DNA of 64,000 bases from Acidimicrobiales bacterium (lineage in GTDB: Bacteria > Actinomycetota > Acidimicrobiia > Acidimicrobiales > Iamiaceae): NCBI GenBank assembly GCA_035547835.1, contig DASZTW010000007.1, forward strand, positions 1 through 64,000, given 5' to 3'. This document shows, piece by piece, positions 28,503 through 42,193 of this stretch. Position 1 is the stretch's first letter; each line of letters starts with the position of its first letter. A program made the position numbers and the translations under genes. Below the pieces are notes generated by a model. That model saw nothing but the letters and a program-made list of their open reading frames with translations. It did not search any database and was not told the DNA's origin.

Positions 28503-30137
28503 TCAGGGGCGCCAGGGGGTGAGCGCGGGGGTGACGGGCTCCCAGGTGCCGGTCCGGGCGGCGCCGAGCCACACGCCGGCGCCGTACGCGATGTCGTCGG
28601 CGGTGGCGAGGGCGACGAACCGGGCGGGGTCGAGGGCGGGGCGGAGTGTCCACCAGTCCACGAGTGCCGGCACCACGGCCGCTGCCAGCGCCACTCGCCG
28701 GCCGCGGCCGGACAGGACCATGGTGGCCGCGGTGATCGGCAGCCACGCGCGGGTGAGTGATCGGGCGATCAACCGTCCCGCACCCACATGCCCTCGCGCG
28801 GTCAGGCGGGCAGCCTCGGCGATCGGGTGGACGAGACCGCGGTCGCGCAGGCGCCTGCCGAGGGCGACGGCCGTTCCACCGGCGATGGTGGCCCCCGCGA
28901 CCGGATGTCCCGCCGCGGTCAGTGCCCACACGGCGGCGCTCCAGGGCGACACACCCAGCGGGGCGAGCATGCCGGTGTGGCGCGCGGCAAGGGGTGCCGC
29001 CGACGTGCCGTAGTCGACCCGCCGCCGCAGCCACGGGCCGAGGCGGGTCGGGTGGTCATGGCCGACCTCCGCCGCCGGCTCGTAGCGCACCCGATGCCCG
29101 GCCTCGTGAAGGCGCCACACCAAGTCGACGTCTTCGCCCACCTTCAGTTCCTCGTCGAACCCACCGGCCTCGTGGAGGTGGGTGGCGCGGCCGACGAAGG
29201 TGGTCGACGGCACGTACGGCACCCGTGACCGGGGCCGGACGGGTGCGGGGTCGGCCCCGAGATCGAGGGCCGAGCGCACGGCTTCGTAGCGAGCCACCGC
29301 GGTGCGCGACTCGCCGGCCCAGCTGGCCGCGCCGGTGCGGGTGTGGGGTCCAGCCTCGCGACCACGCACGCGCGGGGCGACCAAGGCCACCCGCTCGTCG
29401 GCGAAGTGGGGGAGCAGCGCCTCCAACCAACCCGGACGCACCTCGCACCCGGCATCCACGAACGCCATGAAAGGCGATTGGGCGGCGGCCAGCCCGGTGT
29501 TGCGTGCCGCGCCGGCGCCGCCGTTCACGGGTCGCCGCACCAACTGGATGTGCCACGGCCAGCCGGGAGCCCGGGCGCGGGTGGGTGACACCCGGCCGTC
29601 CACGTCGGAGGCTGGCGTGGTGACGCGCGGCGACACGGGTGGGGCGCCGGTCATGGCTGCGGTGCCGGCCACCACCTCGCGCACCGGGTCGGGGTCCGTG
29701 GAGGCGTCGTCCACCACCACCACCTCGGCCACGTCAGGACTGACCCGGGCCAGCGAGCGGAGCGTGGTCGCGAGCCCATCCGGGCGATCGAACACCGGGA
29801 TCACCACCGCCACCTCGCCGGGCGAAGGGCCGTCCTCCGGCGAGCACACGGGCACGATCGCGCCGGAGTCGACCAACCGGTCGAGCAGCCCCTGCGCCGG
29901 TTCGCTCAGGGACTCGACCGCGATGGGTTCGCCACGCTCGGCCCGCCGCACCAGCGCAGCCCCCGCCGGGGTGAGACGCAGCAGCGACAACGGCGAGCCG
30001 CCGAGCAGCGCGGTGCCCCCGCCTCGGACGGGCAGGAGGCGTGTCGCCCGGTCGAGCACCCAGCGGCTCAGCGCCACGGAGGTCGGCTCGGCGGTGCCGG
30101 GGCAACGCTCGGGCGAGCGACCCGACGGGTCCGCCAC
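28503..30137 (-). CDS. mftF: Mycofactocin glycosyltransferase MftF
   Basis: 544 residues from GTG at 30137; a later GTG at the VALSRW position is possible. Residues about 25-110 form the MftF-specific lead (ALLGGSPLSLLRLTPAG). A GT-A/family-2 glycosyltransferase follows: VAVVIPVFDRPDGLATTLRS, VVVVDDASTDPD (the DxD-like metal site), and FMAFVDAGCEVRPGW. Hydrophobic stretches near the C-terminus suggest membrane contact. In mycobacteria MftF adds beta-1,4-glucose units to premycofactocin. It is separated from the upstream SDR by 157 bp that hold a copy of that SDR's 3' end. Confidence 0.9.
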   Translation of the reverse strand: MADPSGRSPERCPGTAEPTSVALSRWVLDRATRLLPVRGGGTALLGGSPLSLLRLTPAGAALVRRAERGEPIAVESLSEPAQGLLDRLVDSGAIVPVCSPEDGPSPGEVAVVIPVFDRPDGLATTLRSLARVSPDVAEVVVVDDASTDPDPVREVVAGTAAMTGAPPVSPRVTTPASDVDGRVSPTRARAPGWPWHIQLVRRPVNGGAGAARNTGLAAAQSPFMAFVDAGCEVRPGWLEALLPHFADERVALVAPRVRGREAGPHTRTGAASWAGESRTAVARYEAVRSALDLGADPAPVRPRSRVPYVPSTTFVGRATHLHEAGGFDEELKVGEDVDLVWRLHEAGHRVRYEPAAEVGHDHPTRLGPWLRRRVDYGTSAAPLAARHTGMLAPLGVSPWSAAVWALTAAGHPVAGATIAGGTAVALGRRLRDRGLVHPIAEAARLTARGHVGAGRLIARSLTRAWLPITAATMVLSGRGRRVALAAAVVPALVDWWTLRPALDPARFVALATADDIAYGAGVWLGAARTGTWEPVTPALTPWRP

Positions 30138-30207: not shown

Positions 30208-30321
30208 GGGTTGCCGTGGTCACCGGGCGTCCATGCCCGCGTCGACGTCCGTCTTGCCGTCCGCCTCGTCGCGGGCGGCGTCGGGTTGCCGTATTCACCG
30301 GGCGTCCATGCCCGCGTCGAC
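30208..30321. repeat. Imperfect 39-bp direct repeat of the SDR 3' end
   Basis: Positions 30208-30246 and 30283-30321 match at 37 of 39 bases, 75 bp apart. The second copy encodes the last residues of the SDR (VDAGMDAR and stop) on the minus strand. The first copy lies downstream of that stop and retains the same codons in frame, so it looks like a relic of a small tandem duplication. Confidence 0.7.
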
Positions 30322-31104
30322 TGGGACGACGGCGCCGGTCATGCCGCTCCCGCCAGGTCCGCACAAGAAGGCGATCACGCCCGCGATCTCCTCGGGGCGC
30401 AAGAGCCGGGGCAACAGGTGGTGGGTCGCGAACTCCTCCGGCGAGTCGAGGCCGTAGACCGCCGCGCTCGCATCGAGGATCGGGCCCACCGTGGAGCCGG
30501 GGCAGACGACGTTCGCGCAGATGCCGTATGGGCCCAGCTCGGCCGCCATCGAGGTCACCAGTCCGACGAGCCCGTGCTTGGACGCCGAGTAGGCGGCCAG
30601 CATCGGCAGCCCTTTCACGCCCGCGGCGGACGACACGGCGATGAACCGGCCGCGGCGCGGCTCGGGCCGGGCGAGCATGGCCGGGACCGCGGCGCGCGCC
30701 AGTCGCCAGGCGCCAGTCAGGTTGACGTCCAGCTGCACGTGCCACGCGGCCTCGGTCGTCTCCCAGGCAGGGTGGCCGCCTCGCAACACGCCGGCGACCG
30801 GCACCGCGGCATCGAGGCCGCCGAACGTGTCGACCGCGGTCTTCACCGCTGCGTCGAGGCCGGCCTGGTCGCGCACGTCGGCCACCACGCCGATGCACCG
30901 GTCGCCGCCGTCGGCCACGACAGCTTCGAGGTCGGCCTGGTTGGCCAGGGGATAGCTGAGGACCGGGTCGTCTGCGCACGCGTCGGTGGCCACGACCGCC
31001 CACCCGCCGGCGAGCAGCGCTCGGACGGTGGCAGCGCCGATCCCGCGCGCGGCGCCGGTCACCAGTGCAACGGGCGGGTCGGACCTGCCGTCGTCGGAAG
31101 CCAT
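30295..31104 (-). CDS. Mycofactocin-locus SDR oxidoreductase
   Basis: 269 residues from ATG at 31104 (GTG two codons earlier). SDR motifs: VALVTGAARGIGAAT, PVAGVL in place of NNAG, SSAAG, YSASKHG. The tail NVVCPGSTVGPILDASAAVY and the PRLLRPEEIAGVIAFLCG segment are characteristic of the SDR subfamily that sits inside mycofactocin loci. It probably uses a tightly held nicotinamide re-oxidised by mycofactocin; this is family inference. It lies between mftF and the acyl-ACP desaturase on the same strand. Confidence 0.83.
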   Translation of the reverse strand: MASDDGRSDPPVALVTGAARGIGAATVRALLAGGWAVVATDACADDPVLSYPLANQADLEAVVADGGDRCIGVVADVRDQAGLDAAVKTAVDTFGGLDAAVPVAGVLRGGHPAWETTEAAWHVQLDVNLTGAWRLARAAVPAMLARPEPRRGRFIAVSSAAGVKGLPMLAAYSASKHGLVGLVTSMAAELGPYGICANVVCPGSTVGPILDASAAVYGLDSPEEFATHHLLPRLLRPEEIAGVIAFLCGPGGSGMTGAVVPVDAGMDAR

Positions 31105-31153
31105 GGGCACGTTTTAGGACGTGAACGGATGGGCCGGGAAGCCCGTCGCCGGC

Positions 31154-32101
31154 TCAGACGAGCCGCGGGGTGGCGCCGCCGGCGGCTTCCGCAGCGCGCT
31201 CTGCCGCCCGGCGGGCCAGGCGCTGGCCGGCCTTCCCGATGCGCTCGATGCGCTTGAGCACGCGGTCGCGGGCTTGCTCGGCCGCGTCGGTGAGGCCGGT
31301 GACCTTCTCGATGGCCCAGTGGCGCAACACGACCGGCACGAGCACCTGGTCGTGGTGCAAGAGGAAGTCGTAGATCCCCGCTCGGGCGATGGCGTTGGCG
31401 TGCTCGGTGAACGCCGGGATGCCGGTTCCGGGCATCTCGAAGTCGCGGACTTGGCGCTCGATCGACGCCAGCACGGTCGACGGGTCGATCTCGAGCGCGG
31501 TGGCCACGAGGTCGCGGTAGAAGAGGAAGTGCAGGTTCTCGTCGGCGGCGACCCGTGACATCACGGCCATGCCGGCCGGGTCGTCGAGCGCTTTGCCGGT
31601 GTTGCGGTGGGCGATGCGGGTGGCCAGCTCCTGCAAGGCCACGTAGACCAGTCCGTCGACCGGGTCGGCGGGCTCGGGCACGACACCCCGCGACACCTGC
31701 ACCATCCGGGATCGCTCCAGCTCGACCGGGTCGAGCGCATCGGTGACCGTGAGGTAGTCGCGGATCACCATCGAGTGCCGACCTTCCTCGGCCGTCCACC
31801 GCCGCGCCCACTCGCCCCACGCCCCGTCGCGGCCGAACATCCGGTCGATGGTGTGGAAGTAGTACGGCAGGTTGTCCTCCGTGAGGAGGTTGACGAACAA
31901 GGCGCTGCGGACCCCGTCCGACATCGGGAACATGTCGGGCTTCCAGTCGCGATCCGCATCGTCGATGCCGCGCCCGGCCGCGCGGTCCCACGGGACCAGC
32001 TCGTGGGGGAACCACTCCTTGGCCATGTCGAGGTGGCGGTCGAGGAGTTCCTCGACCTTCGGGGTCAGCTCGGCGGCCAGCGCCGTGCTCGGAGAGGTCA
32101 C
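31154..32101 (-). CDS. Acyl-ACP desaturase (DesA-like di-iron enzyme)
   Basis: 315 residues. Two ExxH iron motifs are visible, EEGRHSMVIRDYL and DENLHFLFYRD, in a ferritin-like helical bundle, matching mycobacterial DesA1/DesA2 (about 275-340 residues). It introduces a cis double bond in ACP-bound fatty acids using O2 and ferredoxin. A basic, alanine-rich tail (RLARRAAERAAEAAGG) ends the protein. Its start overlaps the MftR-MftE stop by 4 bp (ATGA), so it is translationally coupled to a mycofactocin gene. Confidence 0.88.
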   Translation of the reverse strand: MTSPSTALAAELTPKVEELLDRHLDMAKEWFPHELVPWDRAAGRGIDDADRDWKPDMFPMSDGVRSALFVNLLTEDNLPYYFHTIDRMFGRDGAWGEWARRWTAEEGRHSMVIRDYLTVTDALDPVELERSRMVQVSRGVVPEPADPVDGLVYVALQELATRIAHRNTGKALDDPAGMAVMSRVAADENLHFLFYRDLVATALEIDPSTVLASIERQVRDFEMPGTGIPAFTEHANAIARAGIYDFLLHHDQVLVPVVLRHWAIEKVTGLTDAAEQARDRVLKRIERIGKAGQRLARRAAERAAEAAGGATPRLV

Positions 32102-33516
32102 GACGGAAGGGTAGTGCCCGAGCCGCCTGGTGGGCAGGTCGAGGCCTCATCGACCACCGCATCGACCACCGCATGGACCACGGCGGACAGGTCGGCCACC
32201 AGGGCGTCGAGGAGCGCTTCGCCCTCGCCAGGCGTCGCACCGGTGGGGTCCCCGAGCACGCCGTTCGGGGTCACGGCCGCGAGCCCGCCCTTGCGCAGGT
32301 CCGCGAGCAGCTCGCCGAGCGGTGCCGTGTTGCCCGCCTCGGCCAGGTCGGGGCGGACCGAGCGGGGCGCGAGGTGCAACAGGAGCGAGGTCTCGGTTCG
32401 CCCTGCGTGGGCGTCGCCTCCGGCGGGGCGAGGCGACCAGCCGGCGACGTTGCGGCCCTCGTGGCGGAGGCGGTCGACCGCCCGGCGGAGCGCTTCGACG
32501 TTGCCGCCGTGACCGTTCACGATCACCATGCCGGCGAAGTGGTCGGCCGACCGCCCCAACTCGACCAGCTGGGCCTCGAGGGCGATCTGACCAACCGACA
32601 AGGTGCCGGCGAACGCCGCGTGCTCGCCTGACGACCCGTACGCGATCGCCGGCGCGACGGCGATGGCATGGCCGCGGCGACGGAGGTCGTCGGCAGCCCG
32701 CTCGGCAACTGCCACGGCCACCCGGGTGTCGGTGTCGAGCGGTAAGTGCGGCCCGTGTTGCTCGACGCTGCCGAGCGGCACGAGCAGCACCGGGTGCGAC
32801 GCGTCCAGGTCTGGGCTGCGGGCTTCCGCCAGGTGGCTCGGGGGGCTGGCGGCGCCCGCAGCGCGCCCGCCAGCCGTGTCGCCCCTGCCGACCCCGTCGG
32901 CCGCTGTGTCGCCCCCGTCGAGCTGGTCGAAGTCGAGGCCGCTGCCGAGGGTGGCGAAGCCGGCTTGCAGCAGCCCGGCGAGGTCGGCGTCCGGGTCGGC
33001 GAGCCATTGCTCGTACGCGGCCACCGACACCGCGAGCGACACGTGCCCGACGAGCTGGGGGATCGGCGCGAACGGGTCGGTGCCGAGGCGCCCGGCCACG
33101 AAGCGGGCGATCACGGCGCGCCAGTCGGCGTAGCGGAGGGTGCCGTGGGCTTGCAGCGCCGGGACCCGCAAGATCAGGGCCATGCGCTGGCGGTGCTCCG
33201 GTACGGCGCCGGCGGGCAGCGAGTTGAACCGCACGACGGCTCCCGCCACTGCGGCGAGCACCGGGGTCGAGGGCGGTGCGGCGCCCAGCCAGTGGTCCAT
33301 CGACGCGAGCAGCTCGTCGAACGCGCCCCACACCACGTCGTTCTTGGAGGGGTAGTAGCGGAAGAACGTGCGGCGGGACACGCCGGCCGCGTCGGCGATG
33401 TCGTCGACGGTCGTGCGCTCAAACCCCTGGTCCGCGAACAGGTCGAGCGCGACGGCCTCCAGCTCGGCGCGGCTGGTGGCCGGCGGTCGCCCGCTGGGTG
33501 CGTTGGACTTTGACAC
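32098..33516 (-). CDS. mftRE: MftR-MftE fusion: TetR regulator joined to mycofactocin peptidase
   Basis: 472 residues from GTG at 33516. Residues 1-198 are a TetR protein of the mycofactocin-regulator type (TTVDDIADAAGVSRRTFFRY and YPSKNDVVWG). Residues 199-235 are a Gly/Ala/Asp-rich linker. Residues 236-472 are a creatininase-family peptidase with SVEQHGPHLPLDTD (E252, H254, D261), VNGHGGN and the GRTE metal site, matching MftE, which cuts the modified C-terminal dipeptide from MftA. In known loci mftR and mftE are separate genes. No stop or well-placed ribosome site separates the halves. A palindromic operator covers its start codon (33510-33526). Confidence 0.85.
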   Translation of the reverse strand: MSKSNAPSGRPPATSRAELEAVALDLFADQGFERTTVDDIADAAGVSRRTFFRYYPSKNDVVWGAFDELLASMDHWLGAAPPSTPVLAAVAGAVVRFNSLPAGAVPEHRQRMALILRVPALQAHGTLRYADWRAVIARFVAGRLGTDPFAPIPQLVGHVSLAVSVAAYEQWLADPDADLAGLLQAGFATLGSGLDFDQLDGGDTAADGVGRGDTAGGRAAGAASPPSHLAEARSPDLDASHPVLLVPLGSVEQHGPHLPLDTDTRVAVAVAERAADDLRRRGHAIAVAPAIAYGSSGEHAAFAGTLSVGQIALEAQLVELGRSADHFAGMVIVNGHGGNVEALRRAVDRLRHEGRNVAGWSPRPAGGDAHAGRTETSLLLHLAPRSVRPDLAEAGNTAPLGELLADLRKGGLAAVTPNGVLGDPTGATPGEGEALLDALVADLSAVVHAVVDAVVDEASTCPPGGSGTTLPS

Positions 33517-33526
33517 TGAGTGTCAA
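33510..33526. promoter_or_regulatory. Palindromic operator at the mftRE/mftD divergent promoter
   Basis: TTGACACTGAGTGTCAA is a perfect 8-bp inverted repeat around one central G. It overlaps the mftRE start codon (33514-33516) and sits 13 bp before the mftD ATG. With a TetR domain encoded by the very next codons, self-binding by MftR is the natural reading. No second copy was seen near mftA. Confidence 0.7.
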
Positions 33527-33538
33527 TATAGTCCGGCC

Positions 33539-34714
33539 ATGGCAGACGCATGGTTCGAGACGGTGGCCGAAGCGCAGCGACGGGCGAAGAAGCGGCTGCC
33601 CGCGCCGGTGTACGGCGCGCTGCTGGCCGGCTCCGAAGCCGGCGTGTCGCGCGACGGCAACGTCGAGGCGTTCTCCCGCCTCGGCTTCGCGCCGGAAGTC
33701 GCCAACAAGCCGGCCACCCGCGACCAGGCCACCAACGTGATGGGCCAGCCGATCTCGATGCCGGTCATGATCTCGCCCACCGGTGTGCAGGCGGTCCACC
33801 CCGACGGCGAAGTGGCCGTGGCCCGCGCCGCTGCGGCGCGCGGCACCGCCATGGGGCTCAGCTCGTTCGCGAGCAAGCCGATCGAGGAAGTGGTCGAGGC
33901 CAACCCGCAGACGTTCTTCCAGATCTACTGGTGCGGCACCAAAGACCAGATGGCGCAACGGATCGCCCGCGCCCGCGCCGCAGGTGCGGCCGGCCTGATC
34001 GTCACGCTCGACTGGTCGTTCGCCAACGGCCGCGACTGGGGGAGCCCGTTCATCCCCGAGCACATCGACGTCGAGGCTGCCAAGCGCTACGCGGTGCCGG
34101 TGGCGCTGCGCCCTCGCTGGTTGCTCGACTGGGCAAAGACGAAGAAGCTGCCCGATCTGACCGTGCCCAACATGCAGCTCGACGGGCAGCCGGCCCCCAC
34201 CTTCTTCGAGGCGTACGGCGAGTGGATGGGCACGCCGCCCGCCACGTGGGACGACCTCGCCTGGCTGCGTGCCGAGTGGGAGGGCCCGCTGATGATCAAG
34301 GGCGTCATCCGCGTCGACGACGCCCGGCGCGCCCGCGACCTCGGCGCCACCTGCATCTCGGTGTCGAACCACGGCGGCAACAACCTCGACACCACGCCCG
34401 CACCGATCCGTGCACTGGCGGCGATCAAGGCAGCCGTGGGCGACGACATCGAGATCGTCCTCGACGGCGGCGTGCGGCGCGGCGCCGACGCGGTCAAGGC
34501 AGTGGCCCTCGGCGCCCGAGCGGTGATGCTGGGTCGGGCGTACCTCTGGGGGCTGGCTGCCAACGGCCAAGCAGGCGTCGAGAACGTCCTCGACCTGTTG
34601 CGCAGCGGCATCGACGCCGTGCTGCTCGGCTTGTCGAAGCCGTCGATCGCGGACTTGACCCCCGCCGACATCGTCATCCCCGACGGCTTCCACGTCGCCC
34701 TCGGCACCAGCTGA
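33539..34714 (+). CDS. mftD: Mycofactocin FMN-dependent oxidoreductase MftD
   Basis: 391 residues from ATG at 33539. The L-lactate-dehydrogenase/glycolate-oxidase fold is clear: ISPTGVQAVHPDGEVAVARA, SNHGGNNLDTTPAPIRAL (substrate/FMN histidine), DGGVRRGADAVKAVALGA and GRAYLWGLAANGQAG. MftD turns the AHDP intermediate into the redox-active premycofactocin by oxidative deamination. It is transcribed opposite to mftA/B/C and mftRE, whereas in standard loci it follows mftC in one operon. It ends convergent to mftC with a 118-bp gap that holds a weak GGTGGTGGCC-type hairpin. Confidence 0.93.
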   Translation: MADAWFETVAEAQRRAKKRLPAPVYGALLAGSEAGVSRDGNVEAFSRLGFAPEVANKPATRDQATNVMGQPISMPVMISPTGVQAVHPDGEVAVARAAAARGTAMGLSSFASKPIEEVVEANPQTFFQIYWCGTKDQMAQRIARARAAGAAGLIVTLDWSFANGRDWGSPFIPEHIDVEAAKRYAVPVALRPRWLLDWAKTKKLPDLTVPNMQLDGQPAPTFFEAYGEWMGTPPATWDDLAWLRAEWEGPLMIKGVIRVDDARRARDLGATCISVSNHGGNNLDTTPAPIRALAAIKAAVGDDIEIVLDGGVRRGADAVKAVALGARAVMLGRAYLWGLAANGQAGVENVLDLLRSGIDAVLLGLSKPSIADLTPADIVIPDGFHVALGTS

Positions 34715-34832: not shown

Positions 34833-36023
34833 TCAGGCAGGTGCGCGACGGGTGAAGGCGACGGGTTGCGGGCCGGCGCCGGCCGGCTTGGAGTGACCTG
34901 GGCCGGGCGACGGGACGGGCACCCCGTCGGCCACCAAGGCGGCGAGCGCGGCTTCGCCGTGGCCGTTCACGCACTCGGGGTCGGGTCCGTCGAGCGGCAT
35001 GCCGTTGAAGAACTTGGCTGCCATGCAGCCGCCCTGGCAGGCGTCGTACTGGCCGCAGGACGAGCAGGCGCCCTCGGACTCCGGCTCGCGCAAGCTGAGG
35101 AACAGCTCCGACTCCCGCCACACCTTGGTGAACCCGCCCGGGTCGCGCACCGAGCCGGCGCGGAACTCGTCGTGCAACACGAACGGGCAGGCGTAGACGT
35201 CGCCGACCGGGTCGATCAGGCACACCACCCGTCCTGCGCCGCACAAGTTGAGGCCCGGCAGCGGCTCGCCGAGGGCCGACAAGTGGAAGAACGAGTCGCC
35301 GGTGAGCACGTGGGGACGGTCGAGCAGCCAGCGGTAGATCGTGCGCTGCTGGTCGTTGGTGGGGTGCAGCTCGTGCCAGGTGTCTGCGCCGCGACCGGAC
35401 GGCCGCAAGCGGGTGACGCGCAGCTGCGCGCCGTACGACGCCGCCAACGCCTCGAAGTCGTCGAGCTGATCGACGTTGTGGCGGGTGACCACGATCGAGA
35501 TCTTGAACGGTCCGAAGTCGGCCGCGGCCAAGTTGTCCATGGCGGTGCGGGCCATGGCGAACGAACCCTCGCCGCGCACGGCGTCGTTGACCCCGGCGGT
35601 CGCGCCGTCGATCGAGATCTGCACGTCGAGGTAGTCGGTGCCGGCGAGTCGGCGCGCCACCTCGGGCGTGATCCGGCTGCCGTTCGTGGAGAACTTCACG
35701 CCGACGTCGTTGGCAATGGCGTAGTCGACCAACTCGAAGAAGTCGCGCCGGATCGTGGGTTCGCCCCCGCCGACGTTGACGTAGAAGACCTGGATGCGTC
35801 GCAGCTCGTCGATCACCGCCTTCGCTTCGGTCGTGGTGAGCTCGCGGGGATCGCGGCGACCCGACGAGGACAGGCAGTGCACGCACGCCAAGTTGCACGC
35901 GTACGTGAGCTCCCACGTGAGGCAGATGGGCGCGTCGAGCCCACCCTTGAGGTCATGCGCCAAGCGCGCCGGGCCGGCGGCAGGGCGGCCGGTGGTCGGC
36001 TCGGGGGCAAGGTCAACGGGCAC
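34833..36023 (-). CDS. mftC: Mycofactocin radical SAM maturase MftC
   Basis: 396 residues from GTG at 36023. The SAM-cleaving 4Fe-4S site is CNLACVHC (C43, C47, C50; CX3CX2C). The SPASM region near residues 280-340 has CGAGRVVCLIDPVGDVYACPF and CSSCGQYDACQGGCM for auxiliary clusters. MftC decarboxylates the C-terminal tyrosine of MftA and then crosslinks it to the neighbouring valine. It overlaps mftB by 11 bp. Confidence 0.95.
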   Translation of the reverse strand: MPVDLAPEPTTGRPAAGPARLAHDLKGGLDAPICLTWELTYACNLACVHCLSSSGRRDPRELTTTEAKAVIDELRRIQVFYVNVGGGEPTIRRDFFELVDYAIANDVGVKFSTNGSRITPEVARRLAGTDYLDVQISIDGATAGVNDAVRGEGSFAMARTAMDNLAAADFGPFKISIVVTRHNVDQLDDFEALAASYGAQLRVTRLRPSGRGADTWHELHPTNDQQRTIYRWLLDRPHVLTGDSFFHLSALGEPLPGLNLCGAGRVVCLIDPVGDVYACPFVLHDEFRAGSVRDPGGFTKVWRESELFLSLREPESEGACSSCGQYDACQGGCMAAKFFNGMPLDGPDPECVNGHGEAALAALVADGVPVPSPGPGHSKPAGAGPQPVAFTRRAPA

Positions 36024-36279
36024 GGATCACCTCAGAGGACGCCAGATGGTCGAGGGCGGACAGGAACGACGGCCAGCGCGACTCGGCCACCGCAGCGGTG
36101 CGGAGGGCGTCGGCCACCGTCGGCGCCTCGGCGAGCCCCTCCACCACCCGGACCATGTCGGGCGAACGGAGGAACACCAGCCGGCGGTTGCCGTAGTGGT
36201 ACGCGAGCGCACCGAACGGTTCGGGCCGGAGGGCGACTTGCGGGTCGAGCGCGAACGCGCGGTCGAGCGTGACGGTCAT
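36013..36279 (-). CDS. mftB: Mycofactocin precursor-binding protein MftB
   Basis: 88 residues from ATG at 36279, typical for the family. It is a PqqD-like RiPP recognition element: RAFALDPQVALRPEPFGALA, YGNRRLVFLRSPDMVRVV and a C-terminal helix in which SFLSALDHLASSEVI is conserved. It binds the MftA leader and hands the core to MftC. It starts 43 bp after the mftA stop. Confidence 0.93.
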   Translation of the reverse strand: MTVTLDRAFALDPQVALRPEPFGALAYHYGNRRLVFLRSPDMVRVVEGLAEAPTVADALRTAAVAESRWPSFLSALDHLASSEVIRAR

Positions 36280-36322: not shown

Positions 36323-36436
36323 TCAGTAGACCCCGCACATGCCGTCGATCGAGATCTCCTCGACCAGGACCTCTTCGACGGCCTCGTCGGTGTCGTCGGT
36401 CGTGACCTGGTCGGCCGTCGTCGTGTCTGGGCTCAC
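36323..36436 (-). CDS. mftA: Mycofactocin precursor peptide MftA
   Basis: 37 residues from GTG at 36436, with AGGGGGA placed for it; an in-frame ATG at 36463 would add nine residues. The peptide starts VSPDTTTADQVTTDD, has an acidic leader (EAVEEVLVEEI), and ends SIDGMCGVY, the conserved MftA core. The final Val-Tyr is the pair converted into the cofactor. It is followed by mftB and mftC on the same strand. It is too short for routine gene prediction, and the C-terminal match makes the call firm. Confidence 0.95.
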   Translation of the reverse strand: MSPDTTTADQVTTDDTDEAVEEVLVEEISIDGMCGVY

Positions 36437-36804: not shown

Positions 36805-37917
36805 GTGCAGACCGAAGCCGCAGTGTTGTGGGAGACCGGTGCTGACTGGAGCATCGAGACGGTCGAGCTCGACGATCCCAAGGCGGGTGAGGTGCGCGTG
36901 AAGCTCGCCGCCTCTGGCATGTGCCACTCCGACGAGCACCTCGTCACGGGCGACCTGCCCTTCGAGCTGCCGATCATCGGTGGCCACGAAGGCGCCGGTG
37001 TGGTCGAGGAGGTCGGCCCAGGCGTCACCAGCCTCCAAGTCGGCGACCACGTGGTGTTCGGGTTCATCCCCGCGTGCGGTCGCTGCCCGTCGTGCTCGAC
37101 CGGTCACCAGAACTTGTGCGACCTCGGCCAGTTCCTCGCCACCGGCAAGCAGATCGCCGACCTCACGAGCCGCCACCACGCCAACGACCGCGACCTCAAC
37201 TTGATGTGCTGCCTCGGCACGTTCGCGAAGTACACGGTCGTCAACGAGGCGTCGTGTATCAAGATCGACGACGACATCCCGCTCGACAAGGCTTGCCTGG
37301 TCGGCTGCGGCGTCACCACCGGGTGGGGTTCCGCGGTCTACGCCGCGGGCGTCTCGCCGGGCGACAACGTGGCGGTGATCGGCGCGGGCGGCATCGGCAT
37401 GAACGCCATCCAGGGCGCCAAGCTCGCCGGCGCGGAGCGGATCTTCGCCATCGACCCCGTCGAGTTCAAGCGGGAGCAGGCCCAGAAGTTCGGCGCCACC
37501 CACACCGGAACGACCGCGGCAGAGTCGTTCGACCTGGTCCAAGGCGAGACGTGGGGTCGCATGTGCGACAAGGTCATCGTCACGATGGGCGTCGGCGACG
37601 GCTCGCAGATGGCCGCGATCATGGGCCTCGTCGCCAAGCGCGGGCGGGCGATCATCACCAACATCACGCCGTGGACCGAGATGTCGGCGAGCCTCAGCAT
37701 GCTCGACCTCACGCTCATGGAGAAGGGCCTGGTCGGATCGCTGTTCGGTTCGGCCAACCCGCGCTACGACATCCCGAAGCTGCTCGAGCTGTACCGCCAG
37801 GGTCAGCTCGACCTCGACGGGCTCGTCACCCGCACGTACAAGCTCGAAGACGTCAACCAGGGCTACGCCGACATGCGTGACGGCAAGAACATCCGTGGCG
37901 TCTTGATCTACGAGTGA
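36805..37917 (+). CDS. NDMA-type, mycofactocin-associated zinc alcohol dehydrogenase
   Basis: 370 residues from GTG at 36805, with AGGGGG upstream. Zinc ligands: catalytic C in ASGMCHSDEH, GGHEGAGVVEEVG, and structural cysteines in PACGRCPSCSTGHQNLC. NAD site: VAVIGAGGIGMNAIQGAK. The insert DLTSRHHANDRDLNLMCCLG and the TGWGSAVYAAGV stretch match the nicotinoprotein subfamily that needs the artificial acceptor NDMA in assays and mycofactocin in cells. It oxidises primary alcohols to aldehydes with an NAD that does not leave the enzyme. It is divergent from mftABC. Confidence 0.93.
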   Translation: MQTEAAVLWETGADWSIETVELDDPKAGEVRVKLAASGMCHSDEHLVTGDLPFELPIIGGHEGAGVVEEVGPGVTSLQVGDHVVFGFIPACGRCPSCSTGHQNLCDLGQFLATGKQIADLTSRHHANDRDLNLMCCLGTFAKYTVVNEASCIKIDDDIPLDKACLVGCGVTTGWGSAVYAAGVSPGDNVAVIGAGGIGMNAIQGAKLAGAERIFAIDPVEFKREQAQKFGATHTGTTAAESFDLVQGETWGRMCDKVIVTMGVGDGSQMAAIMGLVAKRGRAIITNITPWTEMSASLSMLDLTLMEKGLVGSLFGSANPRYDIPKLLELYRQGQLDLDGLVTRTYKLEDVNQGYADMRDGKNIRGVLIYE

Positions 37918-37927
37918 CGCAGCACCG

Positions 37928-38908
37928 TTGACCGACCTCCGTTCGCCCGGGCTCCGGGCCCGGCTCGCGAGCCGCGTCGTCGGCCGCGACCGCGAGGTCG
38001 AGCTGGTGCTCGCGGCGCTCGACGCCGGCCGCCACATCTTGCTCGAGGGCCCGCCCGGCACGGGCAAGTCCACGCTGTTGCGCGCGATCGCGATCGAGAC
38101 GGGTGTGGGGTTCGAGTTCGTGGAGGGCAACGCCGAGCTGACCCCGGCGCGCCTGGTCGGCCACTTCGACCCCGCGCTGGTGCTCACCGAGGGCTACTCG
38201 CCCGACGTGTTCGTCGATGGTCCGCTCGTGGCGGCGTTGCGCAACGGCTCCCTGCTGTACGTCGAGGAGCTGAACCGTGTGCCCGAGGAGACGCTCAACG
38301 CGCTGATCACGGTGATGAGCGAGCGCGAGCTCCACGTCCCACGCCTCGGGGTGGTGCACGCCGCGCCGGGGTTCCGCCTGGTGGCAGCCATGAACCCGTT
38401 CGACGCGGTCGGCACCGCCCGCATCTCGTCCGCGGTCTACGACCGCACGTGCCGCCTCGTGGTCGACTACCAACCCGCGGCCGACGAAGCGCGGGTGGTG
38501 GCGTTCGCGCTCAGCGGTGAAGAGCCCGACGAGGCCCCGTCGCCGAGCCCGCTGCGGGCCGACGCGAACTGGCTGGCCAAGGTGGTCGAAGTCGTCCGGC
38601 GCACTCGCACGCATCCCGAAGTGCGGGTCGGGTCGTCGGTCCGTGGCGCGATCGACACGGCCATGGTCGCCACCTCGCTCGCGGCGTTGCGCGGTGGCAC
38701 GCCGGCCGACCCCGCGCTCGGCCTCGACGCCGCGCTGGTGGCGTTGTCGGGCCGCATCCGGGTGCGTGAAGGCGTGGCGCGCCCCGCCGAGGACATCATC
38801 CGAGAGCTGTGGGCCGAAGTGTTCGACCCTGCCCGGCAGGGCCGGGACGAGGCGGGTGACGGCGAGGCGGCCGACGCGGGAAAAGCCGCGGCCCCGCACC
38901 GGGGCTGA
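37928..38908 (+). CDS. MoxR-family AAA+ ATPase
   Basis: 326 residues from TTG at 37928, 10 bp after the dehydrogenase stop. Walker A is EGPPGTGKSTLLRAIA; Walker B is LLYVEELNRVPEETLN; sensor 1 is VAAMNPFDAVG. MoxR ATPases act as chaperones with a VWA-domain partner, usually to insert a metal or cofactor in an enzyme. The VWA partner follows directly with a 4-bp overlap. Location behind a mycofactocin-type dehydrogenase suggests that enzyme, or another in the pathway, as client; this is inference. Confidence 0.87.
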   Translation: MTDLRSPGLRARLASRVVGRDREVELVLAALDAGRHILLEGPPGTGKSTLLRAIAIETGVGFEFVEGNAELTPARLVGHFDPALVLTEGYSPDVFVDGPLVAALRNGSLLYVEELNRVPEETLNALITVMSERELHVPRLGVVHAAPGFRLVAAMNPFDAVGTARISSAVYDRTCRLVVDYQPAADEARVVAFALSGEEPDEAPSPSPLRADANWLAKVVEVVRRTRTHPEVRVGSSVRGAIDTAMVATSLAALRGGTPADPALGLDAALVALSGRIRVREGVARPAEDIIRELWAEVFDPARQGRDEAGDGEAADAGKAAAPHRG

Positions 38909-39864
38909 AACCCCCTTCCGACGACGCCGACCGTGACCAGGAGCGCCAGGACGCGGTCGACGACGCGCAGCGGCGCACCGAGAGCCGCCGTGATCTGTCC
39001 CGCCGGCACGAGCGCTTCGAGCAGGTGTCCCCACAGACCGGCGCGCTCGACCAGGCCGCGTTCGACGAGCTGGCCACCGACGACCTCGACGCCGCGCTCG
39101 CCCTGTTGGCCGACCTGAGCGGCGCGACGGACCCCCGGCTTCGCGCCCTGGCCCGCCAACTCGCCGGACGCGTGGTGATCGACCTCGCAGCGCCCGTCAG
39201 CCGCGAGGGCCGCGGTTCAGCCGGCCGGCTGCGCACCACCCGCCTGCCCGACACCGGTGGCGACCTCGATCTCGACGCCAGCCTGGGCCCGCTCATCGAG
39301 GCGCGGGCCGGCGGGCGGCCGCCGTCGGTCGACGACCTGCGCGGCCGGTGGTGGGCGGAGCGGTCGTTGGCGTTGTGCCTTGTGGTCGACCGGTCGGGGT
39401 CGATGGGCGGTGAGCGCCTGGCGACCGCCGCGGTCGCCGCGGCCTGCTTGGCGCTGCGGGCACCTGACGACCACAGCGTCCTCGCATTCAGCGACCGCAC
39501 GCTCGTGCTGCAACGCCAAGGCGGCCTGCGTTCGACCGACGAGGTGATCGGCGACCTGCTGTCGTTGCGTGGCCACGGCACCACCGACCTCGCCGGCGCG
39601 CTGCACGAGGCGACGGTCCAGCTCGCCCGCTCCCGAGCACATCGCCGCCTGGCCATCCTGCTCTCCGACGGGCGGCCGACCGCCGGCGACGATCCGATCG
39701 AGGCCGCCCGGTCGCTCACCGCCGTCGGCGAGCTCGCCGTCCTCGCCCCTCACGACGACGCGGAGGAGGCCCGGGCCCTGGCCGAGTCGGTCGGTGGTCG
39801 TTGCCAGCCCGTCACCGGCCCGTCGTCGGTTCCCGCCGCGCTCGCCGCCCTGTTCGCCCGCTGA
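38905..39864 (+). CDS. VWA-domain protein, partner of the MoxR ATPase
   Basis: About 319 residues if it begins at CTG 38905, which overlaps the MoxR TGA (CTGA). The first standard start, GTG at 39025, would drop a clearly coding stretch that includes RRHERFEQ just before VSPQTGALDQAAF. The VWA domain covers about 155-310, with the metal-site motif DRSGSMGGERL, HGTTDLAGAL and LLSDGRPTAGD. Such proteins bind the client and the MoxR hexamer in the cytoplasm. A hairpin sits after its stop (39968-39995). Confidence 0.82.
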   Translation: MKPPSDDADRDQERQDAVDDAQRRTESRRDLSRRHERFEQVSPQTGALDQAAFDELATDDLDAALALLADLSGATDPRLRALARQLAGRVVIDLAAPVSREGRGSAGRLRTTRLPDTGGDLDLDASLGPLIEARAGGRPPSVDDLRGRWWAERSLALCLVVDRSGSMGGERLATAAVAAACLALRAPDDHSVLAFSDRTLVLQRQGGLRSTDEVIGDLLSLRGHGTTDLAGALHEATVQLARSRAHRRLAILLSDGRPTAGDDPIEAARSLTAVGELAVLAPHDDAEEARALAESVGGRCQPVTGPSSVPAALAALFAR

Positions 39865-39967: not shown

Positions 39968-39995
39968 GAACCGCTGACGCGCCGCGGTTCAGCGG
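39968..39995. terminator. Overlapping alternative hairpins between convergent genes
   Basis: GAACCGC/GCGGTTC and CCGCTGA/TCAGCGG are two mutually exclusive stems in the same 28 bp, between the VWA gene stop and the stop of the repeat protein (39989). They may stop transcription from one side each. No T-tract is present. Confidence 0.4.
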
Positions 39996-42193
39996 CCGGG
40001 CCGACGTAAGAGGCGGAGCAGGTGGTGTCGCCGGGTGAGGCCCGCGACCGCGAGCCCGGCGGCCAACACGGCAACCGGGAGGTACGGCGTGCGCACGGCG
40101 CGCTGCCACCAGGCCCCGTTCGCCGAGAGGCTCGCGGTCGGCGTAGCCGGGCGCTCCCCGCTCGCCGGCGACGCCGCCTGGGTGGCGAGCGGTCTGCCGG
40201 CAAGGGCGTGCGCGGCGCTGACGGTGTTGGCGGCGGCAGCGGGCGTCAGGTCCATGCTGGTCGCCGTGAGTCGCGTCGAGACCGCATGCAACTGGTGACC
40301 GGGCTCGCCTGGCGCCGAGTCGGACCGTCCGGTTGGACCGACCGAACCGGGCCGGAGGGCGCCGACCCCGATCCCGCCCGATGAAGGGTCGCCGACGGTC
40401 GGTGGGGTGGCAACCGGGACAGAGCTGCCTTCGCCGGCTGCGAGCGTCTGGTGGACCACGGTGCGCACGACGTCGGCCACCAGCGTCGAGATCTGCACCG
40501 GTGCGGACGGGTTGTCGACGGTCACCGGGATGGCGCTGTGCACGTCGACCGTGGGGTCCTGCAGCACTTGGATCGTGCCGTCGGTCGAGTGGGTCGTGAA
40601 CGTCGCGCCGCCGGCGACCAACGTGCCCGACGACGAGTTGCCCGCGGCGGCCTGCAATGTGGTCGTGATCAGCGACGCGATCGTGGCGTCGATGTGCACC
40701 GGCGCGACCGGGTTGGTGATGGTGATCGGCACTTGCTGCTGCAGCGACACGTGGGGCGCCTGCACGATCATCACCGAGCTGCTCGAGCGGTCCGTGACCG
40801 AGCCGTCGTTCACCCCGGTGGGCGAGCCGCCCGTGCTGGTGCCGTCGGTGATGGCCGTGCCGTTCGACTCGTTGGTGCCGACGGCCACCATCTGCGTGTC
40901 GACCACCCCGGCGATGAGGGCGTGGATGTCGACCGGGCCCTGCGGGTCGATGATGGTGATCGGGATCTCGAACACGACGGTGATGTCGGGCGTCTGGATC
41001 ACGATCACGCGGTTGGTCGACTCGTTGCCCGTGGCGAGCGCGGTCCCGGCGCCGCCACCTGCCAGCGCGCCTTGGCCGTTCGAGGTGTTGGCGCCCACAC
41101 CGACCACCCGGGTGATCACCACGCCGGCGATCACCGTGTTGATCGTCACCCGGCCGTCGGGGTGCACCAGCACGATGGGGATCGACTGCACCACGACCAC
41201 ATGCGGCGCCTGGCTCACGACGGCCACGTTGCGCGACGAGTTGCCGGTCACCACCGACGTGCCGCGCACTGCTCCGGCCTGGCTGCTGACGGTGACCGGC
41301 TGGGCGCTGGTGACCTGCACTTGCGAAGTGGTCTGGGCCTCGATGCCGGTGGTCACCGACGCCGAGCCGTCAGAGGTGTTGGTCGCCACCGCGGTGACGG
41401 TCGTCGTGACCGTGCCGCCGAGGGTGATGTTGATCGTGGTGTCGCCGGTGGCGCCGACGATCACGATCGGCTGTTGATCGACGACCGTCACGTCCACGGG
41501 CTGGGTTGCGACCGCGGTGTTGGACGAGTTGTTGCCGACCGACGAGTCGCCGGTGGTCGCCGGAGCCGAGCCCGTCGTGGCCGGTGTGTCCGAGCCGGTC
41601 GTGGCCGGGTCGGTGGTGGCCGGAGGCTCGGCGCCGGTGGTCGGAGACGCCGGGTCGGTTGCCACGATGGTGGCCGGGGCGGCTTCGCTGGCGGCGGTCG
41701 ATGCCGGGGTGCCGGGGGCGCTCACGGCCGGCCCGGGCGCGGTGTCCGGGCCTGGCGACATCGTCGAGGTTGGGCCGGCCACCTCGATGCCCCCGATGGC
41801 ACCGCCTTCGGTGCGGTCGACGACGTTGGACGAGACCGAGGCCGATTCGGGTCCCGCTGAGGGATCGGCCGGCGCGGGGCTCGTGGCCGGAGCCGTCGCG
41901 GGCGGAGCCGTCGCACGTGCGTGGGTTGCCCGAACGGCGACCCTGCGGACGGTGGGATCGGCGGACCGCGCGGCGCTCGGGCGTGCCACCCGACCGCCGG
42001 CAGCCGGCGATGTGGCGGCCGACGACCCGGTCGGGCTCGGTGGGGCAGTGGCCGCGTGCGACGCAGCAGCCGTGGCCACCAGGCCGACGGCGCCGCCTGC
42101 GCCGGTCAGGATCGCGGCTCGGATGGCCCGCACAAGCAGCTGGCCGCTGTAGCTGTTGGACGAGCCCGCGGCCCGCGTTGGGTGGTGTGGCAC
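39989..42193 (-). CDS. Large repetitive cell-surface protein with C-terminal membrane anchor
   Basis: 734 residues from GTG at 42193. I do not recognise a named family. A signal-like segment (LVRAIRAAILTGAGGAVGLV) is followed by a Pro/Ala/Thr-rich region to about residue 220. Then come about five beta-rich repeats of 65-90 residues, with a shared frame: an IPI-type strand (IPIVLVHPDG, IPITIIDPQGPV, VPITITNPVAPV, IPVTVDNPSAPV), then VxI, then a VVxT-type strand, then a NxSNG-type turn. After a Ser/Pro linker it ends with a hydrophobic helix (YLPVAVLAAGLAVAGL) and an Arg-rich tail, fitting membrane anchoring. It is probably an exposed fibre or adhesin-like protein; that function is inferred. 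Confidence 0.8.
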   Translation of the reverse strand: MPHHPTRAAGSSNSYSGQLLVRAIRAAILTGAGGAVGLVATAAASHAATAPPSPTGSSAATSPAAGGRVARPSAARSADPTVRRVAVRATHARATAPPATAPATSPAPADPSAGPESASVSSNVVDRTEGGAIGGIEVAGPTSTMSPGPDTAPGPAVSAPGTPASTAASEAAPATIVATDPASPTTGAEPPATTDPATTGSDTPATTGSAPATTGDSSVGNNSSNTAVATQPVDVTVVDQQPIVIVGATGDTTINITLGGTVTTTVTAVATNTSDGSASVTTGIEAQTTSQVQVTSAQPVTVSSQAGAVRGTSVVTGNSSRNVAVVSQAPHVVVVQSIPIVLVHPDGRVTINTVIAGVVITRVVGVGANTSNGQGALAGGGAGTALATGNESTNRVIVIQTPDITVVFEIPITIIDPQGPVDIHALIAGVVDTQMVAVGTNESNGTAITDGTSTGGSPTGVNDGSVTDRSSSSVMIVQAPHVSLQQQVPITITNPVAPVHIDATIASLITTTLQAAAGNSSSGTLVAGGATFTTHSTDGTIQVLQDPTVDVHSAIPVTVDNPSAPVQISTLVADVVRTVVHQTLAAGEGSSVPVATPPTVGDPSSGGIGVGALRPGSVGPTGRSDSAPGEPGHQLHAVSTRLTATSMDLTPAAAANTVSAAHALAGRPLATQAASPASGERPATPTASLSANGAWWQRAVRTPYLPVAVLAAGLAVAGLTRRHHLLRLLRRPGR

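Follow-up and report, generated by a model that had tools for sequence, protein, structure and literature searches.

A natural in-frame fusion of the mycofactocin regulator MftR with the peptidase MftE in an Acidimicrobiales genome

In the 64,000-nucleotide stretch of an Acidimicrobiales genome analyzed here (the window), the mycofactocin regulator MftR and the mycofactocin peptidase MftE are encoded in one uninterrupted reading frame (32098..33516, minus strand) of 472 amino acids, which runs from a GTG start to a TGA stop without internal stops. That the two domains share a frame without a stop had been proposed in an earlier note on this DNA, and the proposal is borne out, with both domains scoring above the cut-offs of their NCBIfam equivalog models: TIGR03968 (MftR) matches residues 8-194 with 260.9 bits (cut-off 224.9), and TIGR03964 (MftE) matches residues 229-449 with 289.4 bits (cut-off 172). 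Two complete equivalog domains sharing one frame are beyond chance and, as read from the sequence of the one genome and one assembly from which it is known, mftR-mftE is confirmed as a real, well supported gene fusion. The fused architecture is new; the membership of the MftR half in its family is unaffected.

The MftR half (32935..33495, minus strand) consists of a TetR-type helix-turn-helix (HTH) and the MftR C-terminal domain, the MftE half (32170..32832, minus strand) adopts the creatininase fold, and the Pfam matches in the fusion are, accordingly, TetR_N (PF00440), the MftR C-terminal domain (PF17754) and Creatininase. The two halves are joined by a linker (residues 195-228; 32833..32934, minus strand) that is rich in Gly, Ala and Asp and is predicted to be disordered, with pLDDT mostly below 50. 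The succession of MftR, linker and MftE stands as first described, but the beginning of MftE, originally put at residue 236, does not: the LAEARSPDL stretch of the fusion aligns with the N-termini of free MftEs (for example, VLRAARSPEL in locus L041), so that the homology to MftE begins at about residue 229 and the linker is about 34 residues long. The fusion frame is open for 474 codons in full and no farther, which makes the GTG at 33516 essentially the sole possible start.

The fusion is embedded in a complete mftA-F locus that consists of mftA, B, C, D and F along with the fusion itself. On the minus strand, the locus includes the genes for the precursor peptide MftA, with the C-terminus IDGMCGVY (36323..36436; TIGR03969, 46.1 bits, cut-off 25), the chaperone MftB (36013..36279; TIGR03967, 99.5 bits, cut-off 33), the radical SAM maturase MftC (34833..36023; TIGR03962, 626.8 bits, cut-off 265), an acyl-ACP desaturase-like protein (31154..32101; PF03405, 223.6 bits; GTG start), a mycofactocin-coupled SDR oxidoreductase (30295..31110; TIGR04504, 348.7 bits, cut-off 250) and the glycosyltransferase MftF (28503..30137; TIGR03965, 427.6 bits, cut-off 280). 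On the plus strand, mftD (33539..34714; TIGR03966, 657.6 bits, cut-off 470.85) diverges from the fusion, with 22 bp between the two start codons, and an NDMA-dependent, mycofactocin-partner alcohol dehydrogenase is encoded at 36808..37917 (TIGR03989, 562.7 bits, cut-off 440). With the window flipped, the gene order reads A> B> C> D< [operator] RE> desaturase> SDR> F>. Within the 3.7 Mb genome, the sole MftR and the sole MftE over the cut-offs are those in the fusion, no unfused second copy of either being detected over the cut-off elsewhere. Given these sole copies and the complete mftA-F locus, MftE has to come from the fusion frame if the organism makes mycofactocin. No MftG (TIGR04542) scores over the cut-off genome-wide, the top score being 27.6 bits; reoxidation of mycofactocin would, then, be performed by something else or by a diverged GMC enzyme.

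The openness of the linker is, by itself, weak evidence, being unremarkable by chance: when a 47-codon GC-rich linker was shuffled, 65% of the resulting sequences were stop-free, and 29% contained neither a stop nor a start; the codon signal in the linker is weak, though best in the fusion frame. The case for the fusion rests on the two complete in-frame equivalog domains together with the missing start of MftE, and it is against this combination that a sequence artefact has to be weighed. A miscalled stop is conceivable, whereby the true genome would have a stop, such as TAG in place of CAG198 (32923-32925), and two genes. CAG198 is one substitution away from TAG and lies 4 residues beyond the MftR domain, where free MftRs end, and there is a single assembly. 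However, single-base consensus errors are generally rare, and, with that stop in place, MftE would still be left without an ATG, GTG or TTG start and without a Shine-Dalgarno-like stretch, so that this explanation would require either a CTG start or a second error coinciding with the first; we consider such an artefact highly improbable. A single-base indel as the cause of the fusion is ruled out by the other two frames, which have no nearby stop (frame +1 is stop-free over codons 135-331, and frame +2 over codons 32-456). A sequencing indel had been named at the outset as something that would undo the fusion; on this check, no single indel in the linker could conceal two separate genes.

The in-frame internal start candidates within residues 181-262 are CTG182, CTG183, CTG229, CTG237, GTG243, CTG244 and GTG246. 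The first in-frame ATG, GTG or TTG past the MftR domain is GTG243, which lies inside the first strand of MftE (residues 243-248 in the model), and no purine-rich Shine-Dalgarno-like stretch was found before any of the internal start candidates tested, CTG229 included. The earlier observation that internal GTGs are confined to the first strand of the peptidase and lack a ribosome site thus holds; CTG229 was not mentioned there. An MftE that begins at CTG229 would have an N-terminus of normal length compared to free MftEs, and disordered Gly/Ala/Asp linkers are often cut, so free MftE might be produced in addition to the fused protein, by internal initiation at this codon or by proteolysis of the linker. 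CTG starts are rare, however, and this one lacks a Shine-Dalgarno-like sequence; on balance, additional production of free MftE appears improbable.

Searches of roughly 1,150 genomes from the same family, order, class, phylum and other classes turned up no further case of the fusion, nor was a fused MftR-MftE found on PLSDB plasmids; a query with the junction only (residues 151-280) against 395 genomes of the class matched this genome alone. No fused MftR-MftE or TetR-creatininase protein came up in the literature searched, and the papers cited here describe MftR and MftE only as products of separate genes (Haft 2011, PMC3023750; PMC8728441; PMC11778925). This agrees with the claim of the earlier note that the two are separate in known loci: mftR and mftE are unfused in every other locus examined. 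Among 30 other loci with both genes, mftR and mftE are on opposite strands in 28. In locus L050, both genes are on one strand, with mftE about 2 kb upstream of mftR; in L066, the two genes form an mftR-mftE tandem, in different frames and 128 bp apart. L066 was considered as a second fusion, with one match spanning residues 5-451, and was rejected given that it consists of two genes in different frames. In genome G706 (L140, G706:C112, 412-1796), mftR is followed by mftE with a 4-bp GTGA stop/start overlap, an unfused coupled pair. Close relatives with two separate genes, which had been put forward as potential evidence against the fusion, do exist in the same family (genome G016, with the canonical arrangement R< B> C> D> E> SDR> F>), but the gene order differs there, which dates the fusion as lineage-specific and does not refute it.

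The unfused mftR-mftE tandems in two lineages suggest that the fusion originated by loss of a stop. From a tandem of mftR and mftE located beside a divergent mftD, loss of the stop would be a short step, to be followed, presumably in this order, by decay of the mftE start. Genomes G249 and G182 have divergent mftD and mftR with an operator-like site in between, and G080 has the arrangement D< E> without mftR. In trees of each half, neither the MftR nor the MftE part of the fusion is firmly placed. As a separate observation, the MftE of genome G222 (L121/L098), a member of the same taxonomic order as the genome analyzed here, is identical to the MftE encoded in the public metagenome-assembled genome Actinomycetes bacterium JPNG_maxbin.048.

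Judging from the sequence and the structure models, both halves of the protein look functional. The MftE half retains all near-invariant columns of 98 free MftEs, including E252, H254, D263, H336 and E375, and the motif residues of the creatininase family (EQHGPHLPL.TD, GHGGN and DAHAG.TE) are present. The MftR half keeps nearly all near-invariant columns in an alignment of 41 MftRs, the altered ones being D74 and G125, which are Arg and Ser, respectively, elsewhere, and, mildly, V46, so that binding of DNA or of the ligand could be altered. The model of the MftR half has a pLDDT of about 97, with 2rae and Mycobacterium tuberculosis MftR (8x0a) as the best structural matches; that of the MftE half has a pLDDT of mostly 88-98 and matches creatininase structures both by sequence and by fold; in each model, confidence is low over the linker. 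Because a separate alignment was used to model each domain, the models say nothing on the mutual packing of the halves. The possibility that the fusion is neutral or decaying, with one half non-functional, could draw on its being a singleton among the genomes searched and on the changes of D74 and G125. Against this, the invariant HTH and creatininase-motif residues are kept, the domain scores are high, and a palindrome at the start of the gene, described below, is perfect and unique in the genome, all of which makes decay of either half a very remote prospect.

This palindrome, TTGACACTGAGTGTCAA (33510..33526), is a perfect 17-bp sequence of the form GACA-N5-TGTC and represents a candidate MftR operator. 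It covers the start codon of the fusion and, on the other side, occupies the spacer of a promoter-like pair directed toward mftD (TGGACT-17-TATAGT; 33504..33532, plus strand), identified by consensus match only, with 1 such pair found and 0.0 expected. The mycobacterial operator Omft, defined by footprinting, has the form T-N2-GGCA-N5-TGCC-N2-A and is located before mftA (PMC8728441); TTGACACTGAGTGTCAA agrees with it in form, with one outer base off the consensus. Counting sites within 250 bp 5' of, or just over, the mftR start, GRCA-N5-TGYC is found at 26 of 41 other mftR genes (27 of 42 with the fusion), compared to about 1 expected from shuffles, and appears from these sequences to be a candidate for a general operator of MftR outside mycobacteria as well. 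The sites before mftR in L042-L100 often read AATATTGGCACnnnGTGCCA or TAATGACACnnnGTGTCA. Whereas the mycobacterial operator precedes mftA, the candidate operator described here precedes mftD and the fusion. Because the genome has no exact site other than TTGACACTGAGTGTCAA, and no operator site was found before mftA, the targets of the fused repressor are most likely its own operon and mftD, and mftABC most likely lies beyond its direct reach. This suggests a rewiring relative to mycobacteria, in which control has shifted from mftA toward the mftD and mftE side.

Taken together, these features make it probable that the fusion is bifunctional and autorepressed, tying the dose of the repressor to the dose of the peptidase, with the two halves acting independently. 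Under this scenario, a single polypeptide would carry an N-terminal MftR repressor and a C-terminal MftE peptidase, the latter releasing the cyclised core of the MftA precursor. Through binding of its repressor half to the palindrome at 33510-33526, over its own start and in the divergent mftD promoter, the protein would repress its own operon, that is, the fusion itself, the desaturase, the SDR and probably mftF, together with mftD; control of the genes that follow the fusion is suggested by their spacing. With one repressor made per peptidase, negative feedback would cap the dose of MftE until the operator is released by an effector, which in mycobacteria is long-chain acyl-CoA. The predicted disorder of the linker argues for halves that work independently, and a D3 creatininase hexamer could accommodate three TetR dimers. 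From the gene, the candidate operator and the models, we infer intact synthesis, operator binding, cleavage of MftA, the assembly state and the feedback.

A more intimate form of coupling can be envisaged, along the lines of the idea in the earlier note that the joined regulator could sense pathway intermediates directly, in which the substrate or product of the peptidase half (processed MftA or AHDP), when bound there, alters the operator binding of the repressor, making the fusion a trigger enzyme. The physical joining of the two domains and the presence of the operator at the fusion's own promoter make such coupling possible, and the effector could differ from that of mycobacterial MftR, given that the position apparently equivalent to the acyl-CoA-binding His68 of M. 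smegmatis MftR (PMC8728441) is Leu in the fusion (by inferred numbering). However, many free MftRs lack the His68 equivalent, which is not conserved outside mycobacteria-like MftRs, so its loss does not set the fusion apart. No feature of the sequence endows the MftR pocket with a new ligand or marks a coupling of catalysis to repression, and disorder in the linker, as predicted, speaks against communication between the halves. Furthermore, the only characterised effectors of MftR, and the sole effector class reported in the papers cited here, are long-chain acyl-CoAs (PMC8728441); oleoyl-CoA is one to which MftR is reported to respond. We therefore regard the trigger enzyme scenario as rather unlikely and prefer independently acting halves with a shared dose; should it be true, the flux of the cofactor precursor would control its own operon as well as mftD.

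The two halves of the fusion have well-characterized counterparts, MftR and MftE being among the best-defined mycofactocin proteins. With MftR (TIGR03968; MSMEG_1420, Rv0691c; 8x0a), the fusion shares the equivalog score, the HTH, the C-terminal domain and GRCA-N5-TGYC at its own promoter, but it carries a C-terminal peptidase; free MftR is a stand-alone TetR protein of about 190-230 amino acids, whereas here, MftR is the N-terminal half of a 472-residue frame. With MftE (TIGR03964; Rv0695), a creatininase-family peptidase, the shared features are the equivalog score, the fold, the E/H/D residues and the mft locus, but the half in the fusion has no start codon of its own and is preceded by an N-terminal DNA-binding domain. 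The G706 and L066 tandems likewise have mftR directly 5' of mftE on the same strand, but in separate frames, with a stop. More broadly, PutA, BirA and NadR are autogenous enzyme-repressors, in which a single polypeptide couples catalysis or ligand state to repression. The combination of an enzyme and a repressor in one chain is common to these proteins and the fusion, whereas the DNA-binding folds and the pathways differ, and so does the status of the coupling, which is established for PutA, BirA and NadR and hypothetical for the fusion. A natural fusion of this kind ties the repressor dose to the peptidase dose and offers a reagent in which a response of MftR to pathway intermediates can be probed with one protein. 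Comparison of the operators, in turn, broadens the mycobacterial mft operator into a site common to many actinobacterial mftR genes.

Several neighbors of the fusion deserve mention in their own right. The GTG start of the desaturase-like gene overlaps the TGA of the fusion by 4 bp (GTGA), and a desaturase in this position would fit control by fatty acids, if only suggestively; no homologue of this gene was found in the other mft loci retrieved. MftF, of 544 amino acids, is matched by TIGR03965 in two stretches, and its residues ~150-190 are rich in Pro, Ala and Thr, resembling a low-complexity insertion. Farther away, a repetitive protein of 734 amino acids, rich in Gly, Thr and Val and with no Pfam match, is encoded at 39989-42193 (minus strand), adjoining a MoxR-type AAA gene (37928-38908) and a VWA gene (39025-39864).
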